Notes under the pieces: model-generated
Databases searched by the model: none
The model's input: only the letters and a program-made list of their open reading frames with translations
Told to the model about the DNA's origin: nothing
Translations under genes and position numbers: made by a program
IMG/VR virus record: IMGVR_UViG_3300030117_002497
Span: 1 to 36,026 of that record
Direction: 5' to 3' (one strand)
Origin: a virus
DNA length: 36,026 nucleotides
Shown: one piece after another, positions 18,010 through 30,349 of the stretch
How positions within the stretch are numbered: the first letter of the stretch is position 1
Layout: every line of letters starts with the position of its first letter

Positions 18010-18202
18010 GACGAGAACAATTCACATCATTAATGAGGAAGCGTGGACTTTAAGCGAGAGCCAGAAGAACGTGCTTCAGGTTGCGGTGGATCACATGGTT
18101 GAGCACCTTGAGGATTTGGTTCACGATCATCCGACCGCAGAACAGTACAAGCGCAGGCTTTGGGACGCTAGGGTTTTGAAGACTATGGTGCAACCATGGT
18201 AG
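18002..18202 (+). CDS. Small helical protein, function unknown
   Basis: 66 residues from the ATG at 18002, which overlaps the previous stop codon. The product is helical and acidic (SESQKNVLQVAVDHMVEHLEDLVHDHPTAEQYKRRLWDARVLKTM). No family is recognised. Its end overlaps the methyltransferase start by 7 bp. Confidence 0.7.
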   Translation: MSETRTIHIINEEAWTLSESQKNVLQVAVDHMVEHLEDLVHDHPTAEQYKRRLWDARVLKTMVQPW

Positions 18203-19110
18203 CCTATTATAATGAGATAGACCCATATGCCGCAGAGTGGCTCAGATCGTTAATTCGGTCTGGGCATATTGCAGATGGAATAGTGGACGAAAGGAGCATA
18301 TCGGATGTCCGACCAGATGAACTTCAAGAATTTACTCAATGTCACTTCTTCGCAGGGATCGGTGTCTGGAGTTACGCACTCCGATCAGCAGGGTGGGAAG
18401 ACGACCGACCAGTCTGGACAGGATCTTGTCCGTGCCAACCTTTCAGCGGCGCAGGCAATAAAAAAGGGGTTGCTGACAAGCGGCACCTCTGGCCTCACTG
18501 GTTCCACCTCATCGAACAGTGCCGACCTTCAACGGTCTTTGGAGAACAGGTTGCAAGCAAAGACGGCCTCGGTTGGATCGACCTTGTACAAGCTGACATG
18601 GAAGGAGCGGACTACGCCATCGGGGCTTTTGATCTCTGCTCTGCGGGCTTCGGTGCGCCGCACATCAGGCAACGTCTCTGGTTCGTGGCCGACACCGACG
18701 ACACGAGATCACAAGGGTGGGTATCAGGGCGGTCGGATACGGAACGGCAAGATCAGCACGGACACGTTGGATGTAGCGGCTCAACTATCGGGATGGGCAA
18801 CGCCGACATCGATGACGGGCGGAACGAACATAGCCCCGTCACATTTGAACGGGAAGCACGGTTGGAACACGGGGGCACAAGCACAGATGGCGGTGTGGAC
18901 CGAGGACGGAGCGGCAAGACTAACGGTTTCTGGTCAGATGCTGACTGGCTCCGATGCCGAGATGAAAAGTGGAGGCCAGTTGAACCCTGCACATTCCCGT
19001 TGGTTGATGGGGCTACCGCCAGAGTGGGACGACTCCGCGCCTACGGCAACGCCATCACAGCGCAAGTCGCGCAAGGATTAATCGAAAGTTATATGGAGGT
19101 GAGAAAATGA
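18196..19110 (+). CDS. DNA C5-cytosine methyltransferase
   Basis: 304 residues. Motif I is FFAGIG (51-56), motif [11 protein letters not shown] (76-84, nucleophile Cys80), motif VI-like FGEQVAS (115-121; Glu117), motif [13 protein letters not shown] (154-162) and motif X YGNAI (283-287). It transfers methyl groups from SAM to cytosine C5, most likely to hide phage DNA from host restriction. The target-recognition region (about 170-265) is short and atypically Gly/Asp/Arg-rich, and this stretch is also read in another frame. The locus is GC-richer than its surroundings, suggesting acquisition by transfer. The SD is weak; translation probably couples to the preceding gene. Confidence 0.92.
18305..19081 (+). 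CDS. Nested +1-frame ORF inside the methyltransferase gene
   Basis: A 258-residue ORF wholly within the methyltransferase gene, shifted by +1. Its ATG has AAGGAG with 8-nt spacing, a better ribosome site than that of the methyltransferase itself. Its sequence resembles proteins I recall from phage and proteobacterial genomes: [16 protein letters not shown] (45-60), [16 protein letters not shown] (92-107), [13 protein letters not shown] (110-122), WPTPTTRD (128-135) and [17 protein letters not shown] (226-242). Function unknown. It could be a genuine overprinted gene or a conserved by-product of a GC-rich methyltransferase frame. Confidence 0.55.
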
Positions 19111-19280: not shown

Positions 19281-19410
19281 CGTTCGAAGTCCTGTGTCTG
19301 CTTACCTCGAACTAAATGGTTTTACTATTTATGTTGAGGTCAGTGAGGCTACAGAAAACAAACCGCAAATACATTATTGGAGGAAGGGAGAACAAGATGA
19401 ACAAGCATAA
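19270..19410 (+). CDS. 46-residue protein, function unknown
   Basis: Starts at the ATG inside the last codons of the previous gene (11-bp overlap), preceded by GAGGGAGAAG. The product (MIVDVRSPVSAYLELNGFTIYVEVSEATENKPQIHYWRKGEQDEQA) looks like a short beta-rich protein. An earlier in-frame start at 19219 would overlap the preceding gene much more and is less likely. Confidence 0.65.
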   Translation: MIVDVRSPVSAYLELNGFTIYVEVSEATENKPQIHYWRKGEQDEQA

Positions 19411-19735
19411 ATTAATTGGTGATGCGGAAGGCATGTGGGCAATGGCTACAGATCATATTGGACAAAGTATAAGAAAAATTCGCAGAGAAAAAGATTGGAG
19501 CCAATTTGAATTAGCAACAAAAGCAGGGGTAAGCCAGTCAGTTATCAGCCGTTTGGAGCAAGGGAAAACACTTGGAACAGGTTTTAATATAGTTGAAAAA
19601 TTATACCGTGCGTTGAATGAAAAAAGCGGAGGTTGGAAAGCCAGAGAAAAATGGAGAGTGGAGCCTAAGACAGGCGACGAAATAGAAAAGATGTTGGATG
19701 AGATATTCCGCAAAGTATTCAAGGAGGATTGGTGA
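19397..19735 (+). CDS. XRE-family (Cro/CI-like) transcription regulator
   Basis: 112 residues from the ATG at 19397 (GGGAG about 8 nt upstream). Residues 22-75 form an HTH_3 domain: IGQSIRKIRREKDWSQFELATKAGVSQSVISRLEQGK, with the recognition helix near 46-56. The C-terminal part (ETKTGDE-like, helical) could dimerise but carries no LexA-type peptidase, so this is a simple repressor or Cro-like factor. Candidate targets in the window are the dyad at 12069-12085 and the GTAATCA cluster. Its gene lies in a chain of small coupled genes. Confidence 0.85.
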   Translation: MNKHKLIGDAEGMWAMATDHIGQSIRKIRREKDWSQFELATKAGVSQSVISRLEQGKTLGTGFNIVEKLYRALNEKSGGWKAREKWRVEPKTGDEIEKMLDEIFRKVFKEDW

Positions 19736-28021: not shown

Positions 28022-29543
28022 TAACGCTACGCTGATCTTGGGACCTCCAGGTTGCGGCAAAACTTATACGTTAATCGAAAGAGTACAGGCGAAGCTTGAA
28101 GAAGGTGTGCATCCTTCGCGGATTGGTGTGGTCTCCTTTACCACCAAAGCGATAGGAGAATTTGTTGATCGATCCTGTGCCAAGTTTAATTTAACCAAGC
28201 AAGACTTCCCCCATTTTAAAACGCTCCACGCCACTGGGTATCACGGATTGGGCCTGGCCCAAGGAGACGTGTTGAGCCGTCAGGATTTTCAAAGACTGGG
28301 AAAGATGCTTGCGTTGGACTTTGATGGTGCAGACTCTACGTCTGTGCACGATGGGATAACCGTGCCAAGCATGAAAGGATCAGGAGCCAAGTACTTACAA
28401 ATCATTATGCGGTCGGTCTATCGGATGTCTAACTTGGACTTTGAGTTTAACTACGAGGAGGATCGCGACCTGAGTTTCTCTAAGCTTGTGCAGATTGAAA
28501 AGCAATTGCTTGAGTACAAGTCCAAAACCAATCGTGTGGATTTCTCTGACATGATTGCCAAGTACATAGACATAGCAGAGCCACCGAACTTAGATCTGTT
28601 GATTGTTGACGAGGCGCAGGATCTTACACCCTTACAATGGAAGATGGTAAGAAAGATGTCCGAACATGCGGACGAGGTGTTGATCGCAGGGGATGATGAT
28701 CAGGCTATCCACCGTTGGACGTCTGTAGACGTCGATGACTTCATTAACTGCACGGATAGGGTTGAGGTACTCAATCAATCCTACCGCTTACCACGGAGCG
28801 TCTGGGAGCTTTCTATGGACATCTCACGTCGTATACCAGGTAGACTGGAGAAAGAGTTCTATCCAAGACAGGAAGAGGGCAGAGTTACGAGGGTCATGAG
28901 CCTGTGGGCATTGCCGTTAGATCGAGGTTCATGGACAATCATGGCTCGAACGAACTCGTTTGTAAACGACATAGCTGAGTTTTTGGAGCAGAACAGATAC
29001 TTCTACAGCCGCAAGGGTCGGTGGTCTGTGTCGGAAAAGAAACTGGAAGCCATGTCTGTGTGGAAAGATATTTCCAGCGGCAAGGGTGTGTATGTCAGCA
29101 GGGTCAGGAAAATGTACGAGATGGTGCCCAAGACAGGAGAGGGGGCTGTTGTCAAACGTGGGTCTGCAAAACTGTTGGATGCGGCTGGTCCAGACGAACT
29201 GTTAACCTACGACAAACTGGTCAAGGAGTTTGGTTTGTTAGCCCCAATAAGCACAGATCAAACGGACATTATACGGTTGTCGGAAGAAGAAAAGATCTAC
29301 ATCAGATCGGTTGAACGCAGGGGTGAGAGTATATACAAAGAACCAAGGATCAAAATCTCTACGATCCATGCCATGAAAGGTGGTGAGGATGACAACGTAG
29401 CAGTATACTTGGGATCTACCAAAGCATGTGTAGAGGGTAAACATCCAGAGGATGAAAACAGGGTATTCTATGTGGCAGTGACTCGTGCCAAAAAGAATCT
29501 TTATCTTATAGAATCAGACAAAAAGTACAGGTACGAGATATGA
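28014..29543 (+). CDS. UvrD/Rep-family SF1 helicase
   Basis: 509 residues. Walker A is GPPGCGKT (10-17); then VVSFTTKA (motif Ia), LLIVDEAQD (Walker B), IAGDDDQAIHRW (motif III, with the Gln), QSYRLP (motif IV), ISTIHAMKGGEDDNVAVYL (motif V) and VFYVAVTRAKKNLYL (motif VI). It is shorter than UvrD (about 720), with a reduced 2B-like insertion. It probably works with PolA in replication or repair. Start and stop overlap the neighbours, so it is coupled to both. Confidence 0.93.
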   Translation: MIDNATLILGPPGCGKTYTLIERVQAKLEEGVHPSRIGVVSFTTKAIGEFVDRSCAKFNLTKQDFPHFKTLHATGYHGLGLAQGDVLSRQDFQRLGKMLALDFDGADSTSVHDGITVPSMKGSGAKYLQIIMRSVYRMSNLDFEFNYEEDRDLSFSKLVQIEKQLLEYKSKTNRVDFSDMIAKYIDIAEPPNLDLLIVDEAQDLTPLQWKMVRKMSEHADEVLIAGDDDQAIHRWTSVDVDDFINCTDRVEVLNQSYRLPRSVWELSMDISRRIPGRLEKEFYPRQEEGRVTRVMSLWALPLDRGSWTIMARTNSFVNDIAEFLEQNRYFYSRKGRWSVSEKKLEAMSVWKDISSGKGVYVSRVRKMYEMVPKTGEGAVVKRGSAKLLDAAGPDELLTYDKLVKEFGLLAPISTDQTDIIRLSEEEKIYIRSVERRGESIYKEPRIKISTIHAMKGGEDDNVAVYLGSTKACVEGKHPEDENRVFYVAVTRAKKNLYLIESDKKYRYEI

Positions 29544-30349
29544 AGCTACCTGATGGCAATGTTCTTATCAGTTTTAGTGGTGGTCGTACCTCTGGGTATA
29601 TGTTGCATAGGATACTGGAGGCTAACGGAGATTTACCAGATCGTGTGAAGGTTTCGTTTGCCAACACTGGGCGTGAGATGCCAGGGACACTGGACTTTGT
29701 GCACAACATAGAGAAGAACTGGGGCGTAGACATCACATGGCTTGAGTATTCGAGGGCACCATCCAACCGATATCAAAATGGTAAGGCATACTTTCAGACA
29801 GTTAGTTGGGACTCCGCTGCGCGAAAGGGAGAGCCGTTTGATAAGTATCTGTCGTTCAACATGCTACCAAATGTATTCCGTAGATCCTGCACTCAGGAGT
29901 TGAAAGTCAAGACTATGCGTCGGTATCTGTTGTCTATCGGGTGGGAGCACTGGACAAACACCATCGGCATCCGTGCAGACGAAGCCAAGCGGGTAAAACC
30001 AAGCAAGGATAAACGGTGGGACAACTGGTTTCCATTGGCAGATGCAGGGGTCACGAAGCAGGATGTTATGTTCTTCTGGAAACAACACAAGTTCGATCTG
30101 AAGATTACCCCAGGATCAGGGAACTGTGACGGTTGTTTCTTGAAGAGCGAAGCGACACTAGCGGCTATGTGGCGTGAGTATCCAGACCGCATGAAGTGGT
30201 GGCAGAACTGGGAGGAAACAAAGGACAGATCATTCCATGATGTACGCACGTACAAAGAACTGGGAGAGTTTGTAGGCAGACAGGGGGATTGGATCTTTGA
30301 TGACGAAGCTTTCCTATGCCAGACGGACGATGGGGAGTGCACAGGATGA
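29540..30349 (+). CDS. PAPS-reductase-like PP-loop protein
   Basis: 269 residues. The PP-loop SFSGGRTSGY (11-20) binds and adenylates substrate; ANTGREMPGTLDFV, RRSCTQELKVKTMRRYL and TIGIRADEAKR follow in the order of PAPS reductase/DndC-like proteins. Cys residues in RRSCTQELK and GNCDGCFLK could hold an iron-sulfur cluster. True assimilatory sulfate reduction is unlikely in this position; phage relatives may modify DNA or tRNA, or act in sulfur transfer. The gene is coupled to the helicase (ATGA overlap). Confidence 0.8.
   Translation: MKLPDGNVLISFSGGRTSGYMLHRILEANGDLPDRVKVSFANTGREMPGTLDFVHNIEKNWGVDITWLEYSRAPSNRYQNGKAYFQTVSWDSAARKGEPFDKYLSFNMLPNVFRRSCTQELKVKTMRRYLLSIGWEHWTNTIGIRADEAKRVKPSKDKRWDNWFPLADAGVTKQDVMFFWKQHKFDLKITPGSGNCDGCFLKSEATLAAMWREYPDRMKWWQNWEETKDRSFHDVRTYKELGEFVGRQGDWIFDDEAFLCQTDDGECTG

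Follow-up and report, generated by a model that had tools for sequence, protein, structure and literature searches.

The window, by which we mean the whole 36,026-nucleotide stretch of viral DNA analyzed here, carries a C5-cytosine DNA methyltransferase gene with a second, almost gene-length reading frame nested inside it. The stops and substitutions counted among homologues indicate that this inner frame codes for a protein and is under selection as such. We consider it highly likely that the two overlapping frames together specify a two-subunit C5-cytosine DNA methyltransferase, with a catalytic alpha chain in the outer frame and an overprinted beta chain that supplies a recognition array and motif IX, and the choice of the DNA sites to be methylated probably rests with the inner-frame gene. 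Here the inner frame encodes the cassettes of this array and the motif IX block, and the same block lies in frame with the catalytic domain in mycobacteriophages.

Re-reading of the sequence reproduced exactly the coordinates, the +1 offset, the ORF lengths and the AAGGAG with 8-nt spacing that a first-pass annotation of this DNA had given. The inner ORF takes up 774 of the 912 coding bases of the outer gene (85%), in agreement with the earlier estimate that about 85% of the methyltransferase gene is double-coding if both frames are expressed. The same annotation had credited the outer frame with all methyltransferase motifs, which proved wrong: motif IX is absent there and was found in the inner frame, where its block is followed directly by motif X in the outer frame. 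The features of the locus are as follows.

18196..19110, + strand: outer gene (alpha), the catalytic chain of a C5-cytosine DNA methyltransferase, 304 aa, with motifs I-VIII and X and without motif IX
18305..19081, + strand: inner gene, the proposed beta, of 258 aa in the +1 frame and entirely within the outer gene
18291..18296, + strand: Shine-Dalgarno sequence of the inner gene, AAGGAG, with an 8-nt spacer to the ATG at 18305
18313..18444, + strand: inner N-terminal tail over outer codons 40-83, open and weakly constrained in the inner frame
18445..18690, + strand: double-coded stretch, with outer motifs IV (end) to VIII, and, read in the inner frame, the conserved block NLSA...TSGTSG together with a helix (70-90) and a hairpin (95-117)
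18686..18793, + strand: putative inner target-recognition cassette 1, 36 residues, from the largest cassette cluster (76 members)
18794..18895, + strand: putative inner target-recognition cassette 2, 34 residues, of the type of cassette cluster 5 (16 members)
18977..19030, + strand: inner-frame motif IX-like block, 18 residues, with residues invariant in inner-protein alignment A1
19030..19056, + strand: outer-frame motif X, RLRAYGNAI, near-invariant in outer-protein alignment A2

A short way downstream of the methyltransferase pair, the window encodes a helix-turn-helix transcriptional regulator (19316-19735, +); a phosphoadenosine phosphosulfate reductase-like auxiliary metabolic gene lies at 29540-30349 (+; phrog_424, E=1e-55).

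We gathered 153 viral loci, using the inner protein as query for roughly half of them and the outer protein for roughly the other half, and added 80 loci from bacterial genomes as well as phage records. Permuting synonymous codons within the window's gene alone matched the length of its +1 run in 34 of 20,000 shuffles, which makes chance unlikely, though still not negligible, for this single sequence. Among 95 complete homologues, 93 had no +1 stop in the tested stretch (1.35 expected by codon shuffling), and only 13 +1 stops were observed in total against 368 expected, whereas the +2 frame of these homologues showed no deficit (1325 observed, 1225 expected). Inner-frame stops, whose frequent occurrence in homologous loci the first-pass annotation had named as grounds for abandoning its overprinting proposal, are thus rare. 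In nearly all of the 109 distinct outer ORFs, the +1 frame is open across most of the gene and stays open through insertions of up to ~180 codons; their +2 frames contain 7-35 stops. The window's inner-frame identity to its homologues lies 7-19 SD above a synonymous-codon-shuffle null.

Selection was resolved by frame with our own OLGenie-like implementation on 150 pairs, which share ancestry and are not independent, so that the dN/dS values given here are effect sizes; inner values are quoted for outer-nonsynonymous / outer-synonymous sites. The 5' non-overlapping part, used as a control, gave an inner dN/dS of 1.07/0.85 and an outer one of 0.12/0.10. Over the inner tail (outer codons 40-80) the values were 0.85/0.39 inner and 0.12/0.05 outer, and third-position change there (0.40-0.62) was near the level of the non-overlapping part; inner-frame constraint is slight over the first ~45 residues of the inner protein (outer codons 37-84). 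The double-coded catalytic part gave 0.42/0.27 inner and 0.21/0.13 outer, the cassettes 0.26/0.27 inner and 1.21/1.23 outer, and the C-terminus 0.40/0.30 inner and 0.41/0.30 outer, with the +2 control frame at about 0.7-2.5. Inner dN/dS is therefore below 1 (0.26-0.42) over most of the inner frame's length. Outer-synonymous change is reduced within the overlap as well: in pairs with 50-79% outer identity, the fraction of identical synonymous codons was 0.64-0.78 in the overlap and 0.36-0.46 in the 5' non-overlap. Both effects had been predicted if the overprinting were real. The substitution pattern thus shows selection on both frames over motifs IV-VIII and at the C-terminus, and selection on the inner frame only along the cassette stretch, where the outer frame just stays open.

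The outer chain is readily placed. It matches PF00145 (E=1.4e-10) and phrog_363 (E=7e-85), and M.HhaI was its top match both in a PDB profile search (E~5e-16) and in a Foldseek search with its AlphaFold model (E=1e-7). Motif IV, PCQPFS, occupies outer residues 79-84, and this PCQ together with the catalytic-domain homology identifies a C5-methyltransferase. The chain departs from PF00145 in that motif IX is missing from it and its cassette stretch has an outer dN/dS of about 1.2. AlphaFold models most of residues 1-170 and the C-terminal helix 289-303 with confidence, and the pLDDT falls below 50 at residues 174-243 and 262-284, the stretches where a monomer holds its recognition domain and motif IX.

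The missing parts are found in the inner frame. Starting at inner residue 128 is a row of units that open with W-x-T-P and have a median length of 36 aa, and the 18-residue block after them sits at the position expected for motif IX. Across the loci, 323 internal units fell into 55 clusters, with ~1-6 units per gene, although these counts are approximate because the anchor also takes a few false starts near inner residue 55 and in the catalytic part. Cassette 1 belongs to a cluster whose members are 0.79 identical in the inner frame against 0.50 in the outer frame, and the corresponding values for the type of cassette 2 are 0.92 and 0.65. Cassettes of the same type differ at inner codon positions 1, 2 and 3 with frequencies of 0.17, 0.14 and 0.39, the signature of a coding frame. 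The window's set is a unit of cluster 0 followed by one of the cluster 5 type, and close relatives carry varied sets of internal units drawn from the same clusters (0-4 in L023, 0-5-4 in L018, 0-5-18 in L014, 0-5-11-4-16 in L096). Such an array of exchangeable modules between motifs VIII and IX is what marks a multispecific methyltransferase, and each unit would recognise a target.

The inner protein had been described as resembling known proteins. This was borne out by matches to phrog_1008 (E=2e-31) and phrog_31772 (E=2e-29) and by 224 phage records in a tblastn search; from about residue 128 onward, however, what it resembles is the recognition and motif IX part of other phage methyltransferases, and it is no unrelated novelty. 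No family for it was found in Pfam or NCBIfam. Its AlphaFold model is poor overall (pLDDT 51.8), with the helix and hairpin of residues 70-117 moderately confident (66-87 for residues 71-120), as might be expected of a protein that folds only on its partner.

An alternative is that the inner ORF encodes a real protein with some other role, for example a regulator or an anti-restriction protein, and shares its DNA with the methyltransferase by chance. The inner protein does resemble no solved structure: a PDB profile search gave no match, and a fold search with the low-confidence model gave nothing at E<=0.001. Its match to frame-0 proteins of mycobacteriophages begins at profile position 124, which leaves the helix and hairpin part unmatched. 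We nevertheless judge a separate role unlikely, since the C-terminal part of the inner protein corresponds to the recognition and motif IX segment of other methyltransferases, the inner frame holds the motif IX that alpha lacks, and in none of 274 loci does the inner gene occur apart from a methyltransferase. Six-frame HMM searches of these loci placed 241 inner matches over an outer methyltransferase in +1 phase and two in the same frame as the methyltransferase (one frameshifted gene and one mycobacteriophage gene), with no stand-alone inner gene among these loci. Looking for the inner family outside the overlap, as had been suggested, thus yielded no separate gene among these loci, but the family does form part of the single-chain mycobacteriophage enzyme.

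In that enzyme, one to five LLPTP cassettes, the block RLxxAFPEWMMGWPAGWV and motif X share frame 0 with the catalytic domain. The inner profile aligned with the C-terminal part of the mycobacteriophage methyltransferases (HHalign 95.2%, E=2.5e-8; nil for a reversed control) and with L165 (HMMER E=1.8e-10), the inner motif IX block falling on the RLxxAFPEWMMGWPAGW that precedes their motif X. Selection on the mycobacteriophage cassettes was seen in frame 0, with the +1 frame neutral at 0.98/1.31.

We had considered the actinophage methyltransferases to be plain monomers without a second frame, and dropped this description when a +1 ORF was found there too. In many of these genes (L158, L159, L163-L194) the catalytic part is covered by a long +1 ORF (MSATSGPTSGKQFAEYDPDTRSWKMWPDIGLWGSIEYSETWPKTGYMSGG...LLPTP...); the leading cassettes are read in +1, and those that follow are read in frame 0. 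Constraint on this ORF is modest (inner dN/dS only 0.72/0.87), and it may be under weak selection or may be a relic. Other arrangements were also seen. L180-L182 (+, ORF from 1992) divide the parts in yet a third manner: motif IX (KLNAKFVEYMMGLPEGW) and motif X of their methyltransferase (293 aa) are in frame 0, and the +1 frame holds LPTP cassettes plus a hairpin-like block. An in-gene frame change in L066 (1264-2490), either a sequencing error or a real fusion, joins the outer N-terminal and inner C-terminal parts into one ORF. The outer ORF of L152 (3000-4344) is 448 aa long and the inner stop lies 485 bases ahead of the outer stop, which suggests that this methyltransferase has a C-terminal extension.

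The inner start site bears on how beta would be made. At the outer codons that overlie it, Arg33 is encoded by xGG in 82 of 93 homologues, Ser34 by AGY in 84 of 93 and Asp37 by GAT in 88 of 93, against 53 GAT and 40 GAC for the nearby Asp31. The bias persists in a thinned set of 42 sequences, where xGG was used in 31 of 42 compared with 8 of 50 for the arginines of codons 1-30. Several homologues have a different best site, a GGAG and ATG 18 nt further upstream (for example L074, L126 and L136). The GGAG core and the ATG are thus kept by biased synonymous codons, which favors independent initiation over programmed frameshifting from alpha, a route that would yield a fusion of catalytic domain and cassettes with no start of its own. 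Such a fusion would resemble the mycobacteriophage genes, which hold the parts in one frame, and the frame change of L066, natural or a sequencing artifact, links both parts. Inner-frame selection, however, is already present over outer codons 84-165, ahead of any point at which a shift would be useful, and a single shift would lose the frame-0 motif X; we regard frameshifting as very unlikely.

That the inner frame is untranslated, and is open and similar only through methyltransferase conservation and a locally high GC content (0.55-0.59 against 0.455 for the whole window), is exceedingly improbable in view of the codon-shuffle nulls, inner dN/dS values of 0.26-0.42 and cassettes whose conservation is seen in the inner frame and not in the outer one. 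High GC was rejected as the cause of the open frame because codon shuffles that preserve composition still predict many stops. The concern that inner homologues merely mirror the outer protein was likewise dismissed on the identity above the null, the frame-resolved dN/dS, the stop counts and the cassettes. A frame open beyond chance, an inner dN/dS below 1 and neutral control frames are what an overprinted gene should display, and all were observed; the original overprinting claim is upheld by these tests and by the search outside the overlap.

For the two-subunit methyltransferase, we infer the following. Alpha, the catalytic chain, would contribute motifs I-VIII and X. Beta, translated as a separate chain in the +1 frame from its own ribosome site, would bring the recognition cassettes, two in this case, and motif IX, and would probably attach to alpha through its N-terminal helix and hairpin. 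The two chains would assemble into one active enzyme, in which each cassette probably specifies one target sequence. By exchanging cassettes, phages would gain protection against other host restriction enzymes.

Some existing annotations record one frame of the pair. For Pseudomonas phage PMG1 (L161, HQ711985; 1620-2381) the inner frame alone is annotated and the main outer part has no CDS, and for gene 58 of E. coli phage N15 (L156) the outer frame is annotated and the inner one (run 1693-2419) is not. The N15 inner frame is open only from about outer codon 64 onward, so the inner start there must be a different one. Where one frame is annotated alone, what is probably the subunit that confers specificity is lost for many phage methyltransferases, and 'orphan' enzymes cloned from phages may for that reason seem inactive. 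If the two-subunit reading is correct, a nested pair of almost gene length would be very widespread among dsDNA phages, hundreds of which carry it, with constraint that shifts from one frame to the other over its length, and the prediction of targets from cassettes becomes directly testable.

Two elements of this picture are already known, namely the split of a C5-methyltransferase into two polypeptides (M.EcoHK31I) and exchangeable recognition modules (Bacillus phages). Our literature searches, which did not cover the 1995 paper on M.EcoHK31I, returned no description of the nested phage pair. We did not find described a recognition array that lies in a nested frame, is shuffled among phages and changes between frame 0 and +1 from lineage to lineage; these features appear to be new.

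Lee, Kam and Shaw in 1995 reportedly found that M.EcoHK31I consists of an alpha chain of 309 aa and a beta chain of 176 aa that is encoded inside the alpha gene in another frame, and both polypeptides are said to be needed in vitro. M.EaeI is a relative of this enzyme. In the two-polypeptide M.EcoHK31I (YGGCCR), motif IX alone resides in the small subunit (PMC3404938), and the locus described here shows the same placement, with motifs I-VIII and X in a catalytic chain and motif IX in a second, smaller polypeptide. The likeness is one of motif placement, and the present pair is phage-borne, with a longer (258 aa), multi-cassette beta. One difference counts against the two-subunit reading: the predicted recognition domain of M.EcoHK31I was assigned to the large subunit (PMC3404938), opposite to the cassettes here, which are selected in the beta frame. 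The phage methylase gene of ShiLan also contains an out-of-frame gene, a hidden HNH endonuclease in an insertion (PMC11855218). That gene is a homing endonuclease in the third frame, whereas here the enzyme's own core is overlaid.

Escherichia phages K1ind1 and K1ind3 have the same overlapping pair (PHROG 363 and 1008), recorded as a 'C-specific methylase' and a nested 'Mte8-like protein'. Both frames are annotated in these records, with no function given beyond 'Mte8-like' or 'DNA methyltransferase', the label that RefSeq applies to both. The multispecific phage C5-methyltransferases of Bacillus, M.SPRI, M.phi3TI and M.rho11sI, have contiguous exchangeable recognition modules of ~40 aa between motifs VIII and IX; they are reportedly the subject of Trautner et al. 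1996. The row of modules described here has the same position and organization, and a similar median unit of 36 aa, but the Bacillus phage enzymes are single chains read in one frame and our modules lie in the +1 frame. The mycobacteriophage and Gordonia phage methyltransferases (L158, L159, L163-L194) share the LLPTP..D cassette type, the order of motifs IX and X and an array of 1-5 cassettes, and differ in that their cassettes and motif IX share frame 0 with the catalytic domain, the frame in which they are selected. We give even odds to the idea that the cassettes form a pool mobile between frames, residing in a nested +1 gene in proteobacterial phages and in frame 0 in mycobacteriophages, so that retargeting would proceed through swaps that are open in two frames and selected in one.
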